From NCBI GenBank assembly GCA_002951815.1, contig CP019454.1:744001-808000 (forward strand): 64,000 nt of DNA, read 5' to 3'. A model generated the notes under the pieces. The model saw only the letters and a program-made list of their open reading frames with translations. It was not told where the DNA came from and made no database searches. The stretch's first letter is position 1, and each line of letters opens with the position of its first letter. Positions 6,452 through 48,630 of the stretch are shown here, one piece after another. The stretch is from Sulfobacillus thermotolerans. GTDB taxonomy: Bacteria > Bacillota > Sulfobacillia > Sulfobacillales > Sulfobacillaceae. The position numbers and the translations under genes are program-made.

Positions 6452-6481
6452 TTTACCTATGGTTACCCATTATTGTATAAT
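6452..6481 (+). promoter_or_regulatory. Promoter of the IS607 tnpA, probably leaderless
   Basis: A TTTACC -35-like box (6452-6457) and a perfect TATAAT (6476-6481) are 18 bases apart. The tnpA ATG at 6488 lies only 6 bases after the -10 box, so transcription would start on or next to the A of the start codon. No ribosome binding site is present between them. Confidence 0.6.
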
Positions 6482-6487
6482 TTAGGT

Positions 6488-7117
6488 ATGCATAGAAAAC
6501 TTGTCGGCATTCGTGAAGCGGCGGAATTTTTAGGTGTGACCCCATCGACGTTACGTCGATGGGAACACGAAGGAACGTTGTTGCCCGATGAACGCACAGC
6601 GGGTGGGTATCGGCGTTACGACTTGGCCCGGTTGCGACCTGACCAGTTTCACCGACTCAGCCCGCCTCGCAAAACCGTCGCCTATGCCCGCGTATCGAGC
6701 CACGACCAGAAAGACGATCTGGAGCGGCAAAAGCACGTGCTGGAGATCTATTGTGCCCGTCAAGGGTGGACCTTTGAGGTCGTGGCGGATCTCGGATCCG
6801 GGATGAATTATCACAAAAAGGGTCTCAAGCGCCTCTTAAATGACATCCTCGCCGACCGGGTCGGTCGGCTGGTTGTGACCCATAAGGACCGTCTCGTGCG
6901 CTTTGGGGCGGAGCTCGTCTTTGCGATCTGCGAAGCCAAGCAGGTGGAGGTGGTGATTCTCAATCAAGGCGAGGACACGACCTTTGAGGAAGAGCTGGCT
7001 CAAGACGTCCTCGAAATAATCACCGTGTTTTCGGCTCGGCTCTACGGCAGCCGCTCCCGCAAGAACCAAAAATTGCTCGACGGCGTGAAACACGCCGTGG
7101 AGGAGGCGTCATCATGA
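6488..7117 (+). CDS. tnpA: IS607-family serine recombinase TnpA
   Basis: The protein of about 209 residues has an N-terminal MerR-like helix-turn-helix (IREAAEFLGVTPSTLRRWEHEG, split by a short wing) followed by a serine-recombinase domain: YARVSSHDQKDDLERQ contains the catalytic Ser, and the later LVVTHKDRLVRFG stretch is typical. It catalyses excision and integration through a covalent serine-DNA intermediate. I chose ATG 6488 over the TTG at 6473 because the promoter -10 box overlaps the latter. The stop overlaps the tnpB start as ATGA. It appears complete. Confidence 0.93.
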   Translation: MHRKLVGIREAAEFLGVTPSTLRRWEHEGTLLPDERTAGGYRRYDLARLRPDQFHRLSPPRKTVAYARVSSHDQKDDLERQKHVLEIYCARQGWTFEVVADLGSGMNYHKKGLKRLLNDILADRVGRLVVTHKDRLVRFGAELVFAICEAKQVEVVILNQGEDTTFEEELAQDVLEIITVFSARLYGSRSRKNQKLLDGVKHAVEEASS

Positions 7118-8303
7118 TTCTGGCCCATAAGATTGCGCTCGACCCGAATAACGTTCAAGAGACGTATTTCCGCAAGGCCGCCGGGACGGCCCGTTTCGCG
7201 TACAATGGGGCCTTGGATCAGTGGCAACAACAGTTCGACGCATGGAAAGCCGATCCTACGTTGCCCAAGCCGACCGAAGCCGCTCTGCGGCGTCAACTCA
7301 ATGCACTCAAGCGCGCCGCCTTCCCCTGGATGCTGGAGGTTACCAAGAACGCCCCCCAGATGGCGATTATGCACTTGGGTCAAGCGTTCAAGAATTTCTT
7401 TGCGGGGATCGCCGAGTATCCCACGTTTAAGAAAAAGGGCCGACACGACAGCTTTACGCTCACCAACGACCCATTCACGGTCAAAGGGCAAAAAGTGCAT
7501 ATGCCCAAATTAGGCTGGGTGCGCATGCACGAACCGTTGCGATTTATCGGCACAGTGGTAGCAGGCACCGTGTCGCGGACCGCTGATCGCTGGTTTTTGA
7601 GCGTCACCGTCGAACTTCCCGATCCCCCCAGTGTCCGCCGCGAACGCCAAGCGGTAGTCGGCGTGGATTTGGGCGTGTCGGCGTTGGCGACGCTCTCGAC
7701 CGGAGAGAAGATCGTGGGACCGAAAGCCTATGCGGACGCCTTGGCACAGCTTCGGCGGTTATCGAAACAATTCAGTCGCCAGATGGAAGTCGCCAAAGTC
7801 CGCGCCGGGCTTCAGCCCGGCCAGCCCACCCCGAAAGGGATGCCCATGCCCTTGTCCCAGAATATGCGAAAGACGCAGCGGCGCATGGCCCGACGCCATG
7901 CGCGGATTGCGAAATATCCGGGCGGATGCGTTACACCAAACTGACCACCGATCTCGTGCAGCGCTTCGATGTCATGGCCATCGAGGACCTGAACGTCGCC
8001 GGGATGCTCAAAAATCATCCTCTCGCCCGGGCGATGGCTGATATGGGCTTTGGGGAATTCCGTCGGCAACTCGCATACAAAGCGGCCCAATGCGGGAAAA
8101 CGGTGGTCATCGTGAGCCGTTGGTATCCGAGCAGCAAAACGTGTTCCGCGTGTGGATACAAAATGCCGAAAATGCCGCTCGCTATGCGGGAGTGGACGTG
8201 CCCAGAATGTCACACACACCACGACCGCGACATCAATGCGGCGATCAATTTGCGAACCGTGGCCGAGAGTTCGGTGAGGAGCTCCTCACCCGTGTCTGCC
8301 TGA
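7114..8303 (+). pseudogene. tnpB: TnpB RNA-guided nuclease, broken by two +1 frameshifts
   Basis: The first open part (7114-7944) covers the N-terminal helix-turn-helix and wedge region and the first RuvC Asp in GVDLGVSALA. The second part (about 7945-8303) has the RuvC Glu in AIEDLNVAGM, the zinc finger CSACG...CPEC and the last RuvC Asp in DRDINAAINL. The frames join if one extra A is removed from the AAA at about 7911-7913 and one from the AAA at about 7944. The bridge then reads RIANIRADALHQLTTDL, as in intact relatives. All catalytic residues survive, so the damage is recent or a sequencing error. TnpB is the IS-encoded nuclease guided by an RNA from the element's right end. Confidence 0.85.
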
Positions 8304-43718: not shown

Positions 43719-45623
43719 GTGGTTGCAATCTGCGGAATAGCAGGGATATGGCACCGGGAGCGACCGGTTCAGCCGGCGGATTTGAACGGAATGTTGAAGG
43801 CTATGGTTCACCGGGGACCGGATGACGAAGGACGTTTTGCGGAGCGCAATGTCGGACTGGGCATGCGGCGGCTTGCCGTGATTGACGTTTTTCATGGGCA
43901 GCAACCCTATTACTCGGAAGACGGCAAGATTGTCGCGGTGTACAATGGCGAACTCTATAACTACCAGTCATTGCAAACCCTGGTAGAAAGCCTAGGACAT
44001 CGTTTGAATAGCCGTGCGGATGGGGAAGTGCTTGTTCATTTGTATGAGGAATACGGCGTTGATTTTCTTGACAAGATTTCGGGCATGTTTGCGTTGGCAA
44101 TTTGGGATCGACGGACGCATCAGATGGTGCTGGCGCGAGACCGCATCGGACAAAAACCGTTATATCTTTACGAGCTGGCTGATACCGTGGCATTTGCCTC
44201 AGAACTCAAATCGTTGATGTATTTGCCAGATTTTCGGTTTGAAATTGACCCGAAAATGTTGTCAAGCTACTTGGCGCATCGATTTGTACCTGCGCCGCAT
44301 ACGATGTTGAAAAACGTAAGTAAGTTGCGTCCGGGCGAAGTTTTGGTGATTCACGGGGATGGACGGCGCCAGCGCTGGCGGTATTGGCAGCCGACGATTA
44401 GGCAACCTGAGTCCATGGACCAAATGGCTTATTGGGCAGATAGGCTTCATGGCTTATTGGTCGATGTGGTACGAACGCATTTGGCTTCCGATGTGCCCTT
44501 AGGCATCTTTTTATCGGGAGGGCTCGATTCGAGTATTGTAGCGGCCATTGCCGCGGGTACATTAAAAAATCCGCTTGAGGCATGGTCGGCGACCTTTCCG
44601 GCCAAGTATCCTGGTTATGATGAGTTCGGCTGGGCGCAAAAGGTGGCGTCGCATTACGCTATTCCCTTGCACCGGGTTGAGGTTGATTTGAGCATTACGC
44701 CGGATAGAGTGCGAGAGCTTGCCTATATACTCGATGAACCCATGGCAGATCCTACGGTGTTGCCTCTTGATGGGGTGGCGCGGGCCGCGGCGGAGCAAGA
44801 AACCGTGATGTTGTCCGGTGAAGGCGCTGATGAGATTTTTGCGGGATACGCAGGTTATGGAGAAGTTCAGAGTTTAGCACGGTTACGACAAATTCCGGCC
44901 TTCTTACGGGCACAGTGGATAAAACGGCAATGGCCTGGTAGCAATGCCTTTAAGCGTGCCATGGAGCCGATGGCGGAGCGCTACCGGGGTGTAGGCTACA
45001 CATTTAGCCCAGAAGAACAAGCTCAGCTGTTAAGACCGGAATGGCGTGTCGCTGACCGACCGGGTGCGGTCGCCGAATATTGGGCGAGTCACTTAGCTTT
45101 ACCAGACTTGCAAGCGATGCAAGGGTTTGACGTGCAGTGGTTTTTGCCAGATGATGTGTTGTTGAAGACGGACCGGATTGGCATGCATTACAATTTAGAA
45201 ATTCGCGTGCCGTTTTGCGACCACGAAGTGGTGGAATTGGCGCTAAGCATGCCTCTGGCACTGCGCCGGTTTGGTCGCCAAGACAAGAGGGTTTTGCGGG
45301 AAGTGGCCAAACGGGTGTTGCCATCTGAAATTGTCAACCGCCCCAAACAAGGGTTTCCCACGCCGCTCACAGACTTACTAGCGGGGCCGCTTCACGATAT
45401 TGCGTGGGATACGTTGGCGAGTCCCACGGCGCGCAGCCACGAGTGGTTTGAGGGCGCCCGTGTACGCCAGCTGCTCACGGACATGGGACCGGGACACGGA
45501 ACGACCTCGCGCCAAATCTATGCATTGCTCATGTTGGAACTGTGGTCGGAGGAAATGGGAAGTCGTGCGCTTAGCCGGCGACATGTCCCTTATGTCTCGT
45601 CTTCTTCCGATGTTCCCTCGTAA
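43719..45623 (+). CDS. asnB: Asparagine synthase (glutamine-hydrolysing)
   Basis: The protein of about 630 residues has an N-terminal class II glutaminase domain (CGIAGIWH, HRGPDDEG, YNGELYNYQ) and a C-terminal synthetase PP-loop SGGLDSSIVAA (about 262). It makes asparagine or amidates another carboxylate; wall-linked paralogues exist. Glutaminases of this class need Cys as the first residue after Met removal. Here Cys is fifth if GTG 43719 is used, while GAGGTGG sits just before an in-frame ATC directly before the Cys codon. The ATC at 43728 may be the real start (see findings). The 3' end overlaps a convergent gene by 34 bases. Confidence 0.9.
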   Translation: MVAICGIAGIWHRERPVQPADLNGMLKAMVHRGPDDEGRFAERNVGLGMRRLAVIDVFHGQQPYYSEDGKIVAVYNGELYNYQSLQTLVESLGHRLNSRADGEVLVHLYEEYGVDFLDKISGMFALAIWDRRTHQMVLARDRIGQKPLYLYELADTVAFASELKSLMYLPDFRFEIDPKMLSSYLAHRFVPAPHTMLKNVSKLRPGEVLVIHGDGRRQRWRYWQPTIRQPESMDQMAYWADRLHGLLVDVVRTHLASDVPLGIFLSGGLDSSIVAAIAAGTLKNPLEAWSATFPAKYPGYDEFGWAQKVASHYAIPLHRVEVDLSITPDRVRELAYILDEPMADPTVLPLDGVARAAAEQETVMLSGEGADEIFAGYAGYGEVQSLARLRQIPAFLRAQWIKRQWPGSNAFKRAMEPMAERYRGVGYTFSPEEQAQLLRPEWRVADRPGAVAEYWASHLALPDLQAMQGFDVQWFLPDDVLLKTDRIGMHYNLEIRVPFCDHEVVELALSMPLALRRFGRQDKRVLREVAKRVLPSEIVNRPKQGFPTPLTDLLAGPLHDIAWDTLASPTARSHEWFEGARVRQLLTDMGPGHGTTSRQIYALLMLELWSEEMGSRALSRRHVPYVSSSSDVPS

Positions 45624-45844
45624 ACAGACGCCGGGGTCATTAAGGCCGCGCTGAGGGAGGGCGGTAAGGCGGGATGATATCCCATCGCTTCTCGTGCCTG
45701 GCGGATAATGAGTCGCACCTTTTCTTCTGCGGCATGGAGTTGGTAGATATGGTAGTCACAAAAATCGGGGTCAGATTGCATAAATGCGTGTTCGGCTAGA
45801 TTGCGTTCAATGACGGCTTCCTGAAGCGCCTCCTGCCAAGTCAT
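45590..45844 (-). CDS. YaaL/DUF2508-like small protein
   Basis: The 84-residue protein has the pattern of the DUF2508/YaaL family: helical N-terminus, DPDFCDYHIYQLHAAEEKVR and RQAREAMG. The family has no known function; in Bacillus yaaL lies by recR. Here the context differs. AAAGGAGG precedes the ATG. Its 3' end overlaps asnB on the other strand by 34 bases. Confidence 0.65.
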   Translation of the reverse strand: MTWQEALQEAVIERNLAEHAFMQSDPDFCDYHIYQLHAAEEKVRLIIRQAREAMGYHPALPPSLSAALMTPASVYEGTSEEDET

Positions 45845-45979: not shown

Positions 45980-46840
45980 TTAAAAACCGTCAAATGGCGT
46001 GTCCTGGTTAGGCGCTTCAAACCCGTATCGATGGTAGATATCTTGGGCCGTCTGGCTGGCGATAAAGCGCAAAAACTGCTGGGCAGTGTCTGGGTGAGGA
46101 GCCTGTTTCAGTGCAGCGATATAGTAGCGGCCTACAGGATTCGCATGGCTTGGAAAAGGCGCCCAGACAATGGGGAAGCCTTGCGATGCGGCATACATTG
46201 CTTCACTAACCCATACGACCCCGACATCAAATTGGCCTTGGGCAATGGCCGGAATCGTTTCGCGGTGATGAACTGTAGTGAAAACGGTCTCTTGTCTTCG
46301 AACTTTTTCCTCGAACACCGTCTTCGCCAATTGCGGGCCGCCGTCCATTTCGAGTGCGCGCCGGGCTAAACGAGCAATCCCTTCAGTCATGGGGTTGGGC
46401 ATGAGGACACGCACACTAAGGCGACCAAGGTCGCTTAGCGTGGCCAAATTCGAGGCGCCTTTGGGCATTACCAATGCCAAATGATTTTGCGCGTAGGGCA
46501 CTGGGGGAAGAAGGTGGGAGGCCAGTTGCTGCATTTCTTGATGCCCTGCTGCAAAGACATCGGGGTTGACATGCAGTTGTAAAGATCCAATATCAAGACG
46601 GCCATGGGCCGTAATTTGCTTTGCTAAAATGCCTGGAGGTAATGTCTCGTAGTACAGGGTCTGCGATTTATCGGAATCCAGACGGAATGCGGCGAAAAGG
46701 TCGGCTAAGACCATAAACTGATTGCCATTGAAGAAAGCGATGAAGTCGGCGTTACCGGGATTGCCTACACAATCGTGCACGATGTCGTAGAGTGGCAAGT
46801 CCAAGCGGACCATATCGGCATGTCCCTCAAGGTTTGACAT
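45980..46840 (-). CDS. Cytosolic ModA-like substrate-binding protein
   Basis: The 286-residue product resembles molybdate or sulfate periplasmic-binding proteins of type II: LALVMPKGASN, SDLGRLSVRVLMPNPMTEGIARLA (split) and FDVGVVWVSEAMYA, with a C-terminal DTAQQFLRFIASQTAQDIYHRYGFE (split). It lacks a signal peptide or lipobox at the chosen ATG 46840, which has GGGAGGG upstream, so it should stay in the cytosol. No ModB or ModC transporter genes are near. It overlaps a DsrE-like gene by 14 bases. The ligand is not known. Confidence 0.65.
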   Translation of the reverse strand: MSNLEGHADMVRLDLPLYDIVHDCVGNPGNADFIAFFNGNQFMVLADLFAAFRLDSDKSQTLYYETLPPGILAKQITAHGRLDIGSLQLHVNPDVFAAGHQEMQQLASHLLPPVPYAQNHLALVMPKGASNLATLSDLGRLSVRVLMPNPMTEGIARLARRALEMDGGPQLAKTVFEEKVRRQETVFTTVHHRETIPAIAQGQFDVGVVWVSEAMYAASQGFPIVWAPFPSHANPVGRYYIAALKQAPHPDTAQQFLRFIASQTAQDIYHRYGFEAPNQDTPFDGF

Positions 46841-47174
46841 AAGAAAGACCCTCCCGCTGTTTTCGCACCAATTCTCCAACGGCTGACGGGACAATGGTCA
46901 TGCCCGGCAGGAGGTCTGTCTCTTTAAGGTGGTTGGCTTTCATGGTGTTGCCGCATACCGCCACCGTAACCCCTTGCTGTTGCAAGGCCTCTAGTTGTTG
47001 GGGCCATGGCGAAGTTTCGGCGACGACAAGGTCAATGGCTGCGCCTTGAATGACAAGCTCGACGGGTGTCGACGGCATTTCCGCAAGTAAATTTTCGATA
47101 TTGCGTAAAGCACTGCGTTGTTTATTGGGATCAGCCTCATTAACGTGAAAGATGACGCCTAGAGAATTTGCCAC
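46827..47174 (-). CDS. DsrE/DsrF-like family protein
   Basis: The 115-residue protein has the DsrE-like fold pattern: VIFHVNEAD at the start, an alternating strand and helix (VELVIQGAAIDLV) and a GVTVAVCGNTMKANHL segment with the conserved single Cys, then MTIVPSAVGELVRKQREG. DsrE-like proteins act as sulfur carriers or oxyanion-binding subunits. I chose GTG 47174 behind AAAGGAGG. It is translated ahead of the ModA-like protein with a 14-base overlap, so the two probably work together. Confidence 0.75.
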   Translation of the reverse strand: MANSLGVIFHVNEADPNKQRSALRNIENLLAEMPSTPVELVIQGAAIDLVVAETSPWPQQLEALQQQGVTVAVCGNTMKANHLKETDLLPGMTIVPSAVGELVRKQREGLSYVKP

Positions 47175-47343
47175 CGTTGTGCCTCCTTTTTCCCGTTTCG
47201 ATTGATCAGGGATTTGACGGAAAGTTACTTCCTTATTCTTTTTATCATATCCAATTCTCGTCTTGGATAAAGACATCTACCACGTATTACGCTCCCGAAG
47301 GGTCGGGTGGAAAATATCGGAATGGTCACGGTGTGGTGGCCTG

Positions 47344-47805: not shown

Positions 47806-48630
47806 TTAATGAGAGAGGCTCCGGTGAATTTTGGCATCGTCAAAATAGGTCAGACTGCGCAAGAGATGAGCGCGGTTAAGGTGGGGGGCTTGTGTGGCAA
47901 CGGCCTCAAGAACGTTCGAGAGAGACCATCCTGTTTGGAATAGCGCGTACAAATCAATGAAATCTTTTCGAGCACCGCGGTTCGCTATCGCGTTACATTT
48001 TAGAACGACTAATGTACGAAGGGATGCGAGAGAGATGTCTTGAAACGTCGGGCCTGAATCGAGCTGTATGCCTTGTTGCCATAAATAGGATACGTTAACG
48101 CCTTGAATGCGCGCATGAATGCTATAATGACTGCGATCGAGAATTTCCGCGTTGGGATCGAGGGCATAGATATGTTGGACAATAGAGTCTGAATTGTGCG
48201 CCTGCATGGTCATAAAATCCAGATCTTCAGACTGCCGATGTCCTAACATCAAAGCGAGTGCTGTATCCCCGCATAAGAGATAGTCGGGAGGACATAATTC
48301 CGCACCCACGCGTTCTAACAGTTTTGCGGTAGTAGGGTGTAATGTTTGGGGATACATGGATGGTGTCTCCTCTTGAAAATAGGGTTCCCAAAAGCGGCGA
48401 ATATGATCGGGAAGGCCACGCTGAGCGAGCGCGTGTTGAATCGTAGCCGAGGGATAGAGGCGAAAGAGTGCAATCCATTCGTCCCATGCTCCGAATTGAA
48501 GAATCCGGGCGATAATCCACGCAGCATGGCGCTGGGGATCGAGTGTGGTGGGGTTGACATCCCAAAAGGCGGCGGACTGTTGAAGGCGAGGCCAGTCCGA
48601 TGGGTTGACCGCGACGAACGGTGTGCTCAT
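47806..48630 (-). CDS. AbiEii/AbiGii-type nucleotidyltransferase fused to an antitoxin-like domain
   Basis: The 274-residue protein has two parts. Residues about 90-274 carry the AbiEii nucleotidyltransferase pattern LCGDTALALMLGHRQSEDLDFMT (split) with the G-D-TALAL and ExLDF site and a later ARKDFIDLYAL motif. Residues about 20-85 (FWDVNPTTLD, IIARILQFGAWDEWIALFR, GLPDHIRRFW) resemble DUF6922-like proteins that are usually encoded as a separate upstream gene, possibly the antitoxin. AbiE systems act as phage-abortive toxin-antitoxin pairs. The RBS AAAGGACGG is 12 bases upstream. The antitoxin assignment is inference. Confidence 0.7.
   Translation of the reverse strand: MSTPFVAVNPSDWPRLQQSAAFWDVNPTTLDPQRHAAWIIARILQFGAWDEWIALFRLYPSATIQHALAQRGLPDHIRRFWEPYFQEETPSMYPQTLHPTTAKLLERVGAELCPPDYLLCGDTALALMLGHRQSEDLDFMTMQAHNSDSIVQHIYALDPNAEILDRSHYSIHARIQGVNVSYLWQQGIQLDSGPTFQDISLASLRTLVVLKCNAIANRGARKDFIDLYALFQTGWSLSNVLEAVATQAPHLNRAHLLRSLTYFDDAKIHRSLSH

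Follow-up and report, generated by a model that had tools for sequence, protein, structure and literature searches.

Known thiosulfate and tetrathionate systems

A thiosulfate-oxidation gene cluster has been described in Acidithiobacillus ferrooxidans, where, according to passages of three papers, AFE_0042 encodes a thiosulfate dehydrogenase (Tsd) with a Tat signal, AFE_0043 a periplasmic solute-binding protein and AFE_0044 doxDA (PMC2754497, PMC6335251, PMC2621215). As stated in one of these passages, the tsd, sbp and doxDA genes are expressed more on sulfur than on iron (PMC2754497). The same gene order was reported for TPY_2171-2169 of S. acidophilus, and the part of that report considered here gives higher expression of the exported doxDA-SBP-Tat operon on FeSO4 medium, not on sulfur; accumulated thiosulfate was the explanation that its authors suggested (PMC5114278). 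In the same sections of these sources, the substrate-binding proteins (SBPs) of the cluster carry the annotation 'periplasmic solute-binding' or 'sulfate/molybdate binding' (PMC6335251, PMC2754497, PMC2621215, PMC5114278).

A cytosolic DsrE system has been described in Metallosphaera cuprina. In the passages used here, DsrE3A of this organism acquires a Cys-S-thiosulfonate from tetrathionate and passes it on to TusA, while DsrE3A was unreactive with thiosulfate itself and another DsrE protein was unreactive (PMC4175335).

The gene pair in the window

The stretch of DNA analysed here, called the window, is 64,000 nucleotides long and covers positions 744001-808000 of a single 3.3-Mb contig of Sulfobacillus thermotolerans. 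It holds a DsrE-like gene and an SBP gene in overlapping frames (Table 1). The DsrE-like protein scored 41 bits against Pfam PF02635, over the cut-off of 22.7, and this match together with cysteine C74 places it in the DsrE family. The SBP scored 120 bits against SBP_bac_11 (PF13531), over the cut-off of 25. An earlier note on this DNA had described a ModA-like SBP fold translated together with a DsrE-type protein, which the two Pfam matches and the 14-nt overlap bear out. The overlap would also fit translational coupling of the two genes.

Table 1. Features of the SBP-DsrE locus, in window positions
Feature	Position	Strand	Basis
DsrE-like protein, 115 aa, GTG start	47174..46827	-	PF02635, sequence reading
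SBP, 286 aa, ATG start, without signal peptide	46840..45980	-	PF13531
14-nt overlap of the DsrE and SBP reading frames	46827..46840	-	sequence reading
AGGAGG ribosome-binding site of the DsrE gene, 8 nt upstream of GTG	47183..47188	-	sequence reading
GGGAGG ribosome-binding site of the SBP gene, within the DsrE gene	46850..46855	-	sequence reading
DsrE cysteine C74	46953..46955	-	alignment A4, invariant
SBP ETLPPG motif, residues 65-70	46631..46648	-	alignment A2, invariant
SBP HHR motif, residues 191-193	46262..46270	-	alignment A2, invariant
SBP W210	46211..46213	-	alignment A2, invariant
Gene of 84 aa (about 85 in relatives), beyond the SBP gene	45590-45844	-	no Pfam match over cut-off, no NCBIfam match

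The SBP had been taken to be cytosolic, a reading that a signal peptide in a longer N-terminus would overturn. Such a peptide was looked for by eye as far as the limit of the frame, a TTG at 46894 that lies 18 codons upstream, and no hydrophobic stretch was seen; the objection of a hidden signal peptide therefore fails. In the AlphaFold model of the SBP, residues 1-8, 10-12 and 16-19 have pLDDT below 50 and form no helix, so that the N-terminus is modelled as disordered. The window SBP has neither the signal peptide nor the lipoprotein anchor of an ABC transporter binding protein, and neither a permease gene nor an ATPase gene of an ABC transporter adjoins the pair. The genes around it are housekeeping genes with no sulfur operon among them, and no cytochrome partner of the SoxA/TsdA type stands beside it. 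No Rfam match was obtained between 45500 and 49000. Promoter-like sites numbered 0 against 1.6 expected and terminator-like sites 4 against 2.6 expected.

Two further genes of the window were recorded. A lone toxin-like gene for an AbiEii-type nucleotidyltransferase with a DUF6922 part precedes the pair on the minus strand (47806-48630). At 6473-7944 (plus strand), what appears by eye to be a serine recombinase with a MerR-like N-terminus adjoins a TnpB-like gene, an IS607-like arrangement.

Fold and binding site of the two proteins

The AlphaFold model of the SBP (pLDDT 90.5) has its nearest solved folds among ModA/WtpA and sulfate-binding proteins, at Z of about 20-23.5. The PF13531 match and the structure matches, at Z 19.2-23.5 among the 50 listed, assign it to the type II SBPs. 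In alignment A2, whose 67 rows (66 of the 80 loci described below and the window) were chosen by ETLPPG itself, the residues E65-T-L-P-P-G70, N119, E153, G154, H191-H192-R193, W210 and E213 are invariant; 13 of the 80 loci have no exact ETLPPG string and stand outside A2, as does L116, which contains X residues.

The window SBP was also compared with the sulfate-binding protein 1sbp, in which W210 corresponds to W192, H191 to position 173 and E153 to position 130. Residues S130, A173 and W192 of 1sbp are taken here to be its sulfate ligands. At these aligned positions Ser130 is replaced by Glu153 and Ala173 by His191, and only the Trp is retained. This pattern suggests an oxyanion site that has been kept in place but rebuilt, as would fit a different anion. 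Against the modA family, the window SBP reached 26.6 bits where the cut-off is 62.5.

All 17 rows chosen for alignment A4 of the DsrE-like protein have the cysteine C74. Its match to the NCBIfam thiosulfate dehydrogenase family NF052225 amounts to 15 bits (E 0.011) over 28 C-terminal positions (232-259) only, under the cut-off of 300 bits. With 115 aa against about 235-325 aa, it is without the N-terminal part and the long insert of Tsd.

The SBP family and its cytosolic clade

A scan of named genomes with the SBP alignment found 509 relatives, here called the YETLPPG family. The best 80 were kept, so the tallies below describe the nearest relatives of the window SBP, among which the nearest named one (L058) comes from a Sulfobacillus MAG and is 61% identical. 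Most of these best 80 of 509 carry a signal peptide, as judged from a simple measure of hydrophobicity and from visual inspection. Thirteen SBPs are cytosolic: ten of the best 80, the window SBP, that of G002 and the first copy of G035, a genome that also has an exported copy (L017). In a tree of 70 rows built by a quick method, these thirteen form one side of one branch with an SH-aLRT of 98. By their record labels, mostly those of MAGs, they span Bacillota, Chloroflexota, Actinomycetota, Nitrospirota and Pseudomonadota. Among viral contigs, 35 pattern matches yielded no relatives.

A cytosolic DsrE gene lies directly upstream of nine of the thirteen cytosolic SBP genes (window, L058-L064 and L137); the other four (L127, L132, G002 and G035) are without an adjacent one.

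Linkage and shared compartment of SBP and DsrE

Among the best 80 of the 509 loci, 66 have a DsrE-like gene within 500 nt of the SBP gene, the gap being the distance between the edges of the profile matches, and 65 of the 66 have it on the same strand. No DsrE-like gene was found near PF13531 SBPs outside the family at 26 control loci, of which 23 came from the order and three from the host genome, with 1.5-kb flanks. The difference between 66/80 and 0/26 (Fisher P 6e-15, uncorrected for kinship) refers to neighbour profiles (c1, c2 and c7) that were built from these very neighbourhoods and to a count that takes in a few short or broken frames, such as the 60 residues at L066. The 14 loci without a nearby DsrE gene are L072, L086, L087, L101, L103, L107, L109, L113, L116, L117, L127, L132, L133 and L136; seven of them are from Leptospirillum or Nitrospirae, and six have a contig end no more than 1.5 kb away. 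At L113, a gene of the DsrE cluster is present some 4 kb away from that of the SBP and was scored as a miss.

The two proteins also share a compartment. With a simple signal measure used for the call and three of the 66 partners unscored, an unexported DsrE accompanies the cytosolic SBP in 8 of 8 cases, and a signal-bearing DsrE accompanies the exported SBP in 49 of the 55 scored. Four of the six exported partners under the signal threshold (L082, L085, L097 and L125) have a twin-arginine RR followed by an apolar stretch, L121 has RRSF, and the sixth is L070. This agreement represents few independent events, since the cytosolic clade is one lineage. The window pair conforms to the module as defined here, namely a YETLPPG-family SBP that adjoins a DsrE-like gene whose product is in the same compartment.

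Partners and neighbours of the exported relatives

The commonest partner cluster is found at 37 loci, and all 28 members scanned matched NF052225 at E<=0.001. The bit scores of two of them were 355 (L067), over the 300-bit cut-off, and 79.8, under it. The AlphaFold model of the Tsd-like partner at L067 (pLDDT 83.5) matched the DsrE-fold structures 8uja, 2pd2, 1l1s, 1jx7 (ychN), 3pnx, 3mc3 and 2qs7 at Z 8.2-12.6, the next match being at Z 4.0. Foldseek gave no match for this model at E<=0.001, and its five best were of DsrE type (E 0.016-0.052, probability 0.97-1.00); the Tsd-like profile, when compared with PDB sequences, gave nothing at E 0.1. A DsrE fold is thereby predicted, from the model, for this one thiosulfate-dehydrogenase-type partner. 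Profiles of the window-type DsrE and of the Tsd-like proteins aligned with a probability of 95-96%, and in the profile alignment C74 of the window protein falls on an invariant cysteine of the Tsd-like partners (alignment A3, 28 of 38 cluster members). Four other partners were scanned; three matched Pfam DsrE, and L113 gave no DsrE match.

Members of a cytochrome cluster with at least two CXXCH motifs share the locus in 37 of the 80; a single member, that of L104, was scanned with Pfam and has a SoxA/TsdA-type cytochrome domain. The SBP is fused to a cytochrome with at least two CXXCH motifs at L067:2326-4194, L097:5797-7662 and L098:5788-7632, in records labelled Phycisphaera or Planctomycetota. 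In these loci, whose flanks extend no further than 6 kb, DoxD/DoxA clusters occur at 9 of the 80, a YeeE-like sulfur transporter at 9 and rhodanese at 14, each cluster being named from one to four scanned members. A rhodanese gene also precedes the cytosolic pair of S. harzensis (L060). An ABC-ATPase cluster is present at 7 of the 80 loci and is by eye of the oligopeptide kind.

At L124, from an Acidithiobacillus MAG, genes for a Tsd-like protein, an SBP and a member of the DoxD cluster stand in a row. This gene order links the YETLPPG family to the tsd-sbp-doxDA cluster and suggests that AFE_0043 is a member of the family.

Two further proteins were seen at some of the loci. At six Leptospirillum/Nitrospirae loci, the gene after that of the SBP encodes an exported protein of about 480 aa (for instance L117:1906-3369 and L072:3710-5143); the one scanned, from L117, had no Pfam or NCBIfam match, and a homologue with 36-41% identity is fused C-terminally to the exported SBP of G035 (L017:1303-3783). 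A large protein, of about 870-920 aa if complete, occurs at 14 loci including L088 and L104 and is cytochrome oxidase-like by eye.

Occurrence among relatives

The SBP has matches at E<=0.001 in 12 of 61 relatives, seven of which are strong (E 1e-56 or better), and the DsrE protein in 25 of the 61. In these 25 genomes the SBP gene is adjacent in five (G000, G001, G008, G025 and G031) and elsewhere in two (G002 and G035), while 18 have no strong SBP match; in one of the 18 (G030) the DsrE match covers only 24 residues. With 18 of 25 relatives lacking a strong SBP match, the DsrE protein works without the SBP, and the description of the two as a locked pair, put forward in the earlier note, is contradicted and was abandoned. 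Its expectation that the genes would co-occur elsewhere held: the pair was found in G001, G008, G025 and G031 and also in Ktedonobacteria, Nitrospirae, one gammaproteobacterium and bacterium BMS3Bbin14. A DsrE match is present in all seven genomes with the SBP against 18 of the 54 others (one-sided P 0.001, uncorrected for kinship). Over the whole class, the SBP profile at E 1e-20 matched in 8 of 154 genomes, and the host genome has no second SBP of the YETLPPG family at that threshold.

Gene order in the same genus bears on the history of the SBP gene. The 84-aa gene of Table 1 stands beside the DsrE gene in G001, G003, G004 and G007. In G003, G004 and G007 the DsrE gene is followed by the approximately 85-aa gene that is found beyond the SBP gene in the window, so the SBP gene was probably gained or lost at a fixed place. 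On a tree of DsrE proteins, the paired and solo labels need 5 changes against 8.4-8.5 in shuffles, of which 1-2 of 500 were as low. Pairing thus appears clustered in the DsrE tree, yet not as one group, in a tree of weak support with long-branch warnings. For the nine cytosolic pairs, SBP and DsrE distances correlate at r 0.59 (15 of 20000 permutations as high), a correlation that shared ancestry alone can produce.

The host genome contains an Hdr-like gene set. Ten host proteins were scanned; those from the set are a lipoate-type GcvH, two CCG-domain proteins, one FeS protein and one flavoprotein, two DsrE proteins and a lipoate ligase, and the others are DoxA and DoxD, encoded elsewhere. The single DoxD match, at 216 kb, is in a different operon from the window pair, at 790 kb. 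No NF052225 protein was found in the host genome at E 0.01.

Possible roles of the pair

The tsd-sbp part of the thiosulfate-oxidation cluster would be the exported form of a thionate-handling module of two proteins, and the window pair is, somewhat more probably than otherwise, the cytosolic version of this module. Its SBP would serve no transporter and would capture thiosulfate or tetrathionate in its cleft. It would then present the thionate to C74 of the DsrE protein in a complex of the two, to be carried as a Cys-S-thiosulfonate, and the load would pass to a cytosolic sulfur relay that may comprise the Hdr-like complex and further DsrE proteins, perhaps also a TusA. In favour of this reading are the pairing at 66 of 80 loci, the shared compartment, the Tsd-type partner and sulfur-oxidation neighbours of the exported relatives, the profile alignment at the conserved cysteine, the Hdr-like and Dox genes of the host, the thiosulfonate chemistry of the Metallosphaera DsrE (PMC4175335) and the sulfur-favoured expression in A. 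ferrooxidans (PMC2754497). Gene context best supports the hand-over of an oxyanion or reduced sulfur inside the cell, as the earlier note had proposed; the molybdate or tungstate part of that proposal is disfavoured by the modA score and by the lack of ABC neighbours. Several points count against a thionate-handling pair: the FeSO4-favoured operon of S. acidophilus TPY described in part of PMC5114278, the housekeeping surroundings in the window, the 18 of 25 relatives whose DsrE has no strong SBP match beside it in the genome, the 14 of 80 loci and four of 13 cytosolic SBPs without an adjacent DsrE gene, and a window DsrE that misses the Tsd family threshold.

Type II SBP folds also act as sensor domains in regulators. 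The window SBP could accordingly be a cytosolic sensor that binds a sulfur oxyanion, with the DsrE protein signalling the state of the SBP onward to some enzyme or regulator and no bulk carriage of sulfur, and the housekeeping surroundings with no metabolic operon, the patchy presence among relatives and a LysR-type cluster at 13 of the 80 loci are in keeping with this. However, no regulator directly adjoins the listed cytosolic pairs, the ArsR-like and LysR-like genes of L064 being further off (by eye), and exported relatives that share loci or fuse with redox cytochromes fit an enzyme part better, which makes a sensor unlikely. That the SBP merely stores or buffers molybdate, tungstate or sulfate in the cytosol beside an incidental DsrE neighbour is quite improbable: its fold is closest to ModA and the sulfate-binding proteins and the modA match exists, but the match is weak and under the cut-off, the DsrE pairing recurs over many phyla, and only the Trp is retained among the presumed 1sbp ligand positions. 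A molybdate reading was rejected as the best explanation because of the missed modA cut-off and the neighbours.

The least probable of the alternatives considered is that both proteins together form a cytosolic, tetrathionate-forming thiosulfate dehydrogenase, an enzyme and not a carrier. The commonest partner of the exported relatives does belong to the A. ferrooxidans-type thiosulfate dehydrogenase family, but Tsd has an N-terminal part and a long insert that are missing from the window DsrE, the latter falls far under the NF052225 cut-off, and the window pair has no adjoining cytochrome partner.

A wider form of the thionate-handling reading is possible, although it is more doubtful than the reading for the window pair. 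The SBP and DsrE proteins would then constitute an unrecognised, widespread two-protein device of sulfur oxidation, in which the SBP is the subunit that presents the substrate to a thiosulfate-oxidising protein of DsrE fold. Outside the membrane, electrons would be accepted by a cytochrome or DoxDA; in one clade, found in at least five phyla, the device would load a thiosulfonate onto a cytosolic DsrE for the Hdr-like pathway. If this is true, the A. ferrooxidans-type thiosulfate dehydrogenase would be a DsrE-fold enzyme that acts through a conserved cysteine. The binding protein would be an enzyme or carrier subunit and not part of transport, in two compartments and many bacterial lineages, several of which are iron or sulfur oxidisers by name. 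The neighbouring cytochrome makes the question of the electron acceptor directly testable.

Comparison with known systems

In ModA/WtpA and the sulfate-binding proteins the fold is that of the window SBP; the latter differs by having no signal peptide or adjoining permease, altered ligand positions and a DsrE partner. The cytochrome thiosulfate enzymes TsdA and SoxA resemble the family in that a SoxA/TsdA-domain cytochrome shares the locus with, or is fused to, exported SBP relatives, whereas none adjoins the window pair. DsrE3A/TusA of Metallosphaera cuprina is alike in a DsrE active cysteine that carries thiosulfonate and in its link to the Hdr-like pathway, and differs in that the passages considered mention no partner of the SBP kind (PMC4175335).

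The earlier note had held that no standard transporter does what this pair might do. The pair is not wholly unprecedented: an exported form exists in tsd-sbp-doxDA of A. ferrooxidans. In open-licence PMC papers, mostly represented by titles with some passages, no account was found of a DsrE fold for A. ferrooxidans Tsd, of the generality of the SBP partner or of a cytosolic SBP-DsrE pair. The exported tsd-sbp-doxDA cluster is already known; the predicted DsrE fold of Tsd, the generality of the partnership and its cytosolic form are apparently new. In the clusters of A. ferrooxidans and S. acidophilus TPY, as in the window, a Tsd-type protein (of DsrE fold by model) or DsrE-like protein adjoins an SBP. 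There the proteins are exported and followed by doxDA, whereas the window pair is cytosolic, has a short DsrE and lies about 570 kb from doxDA.
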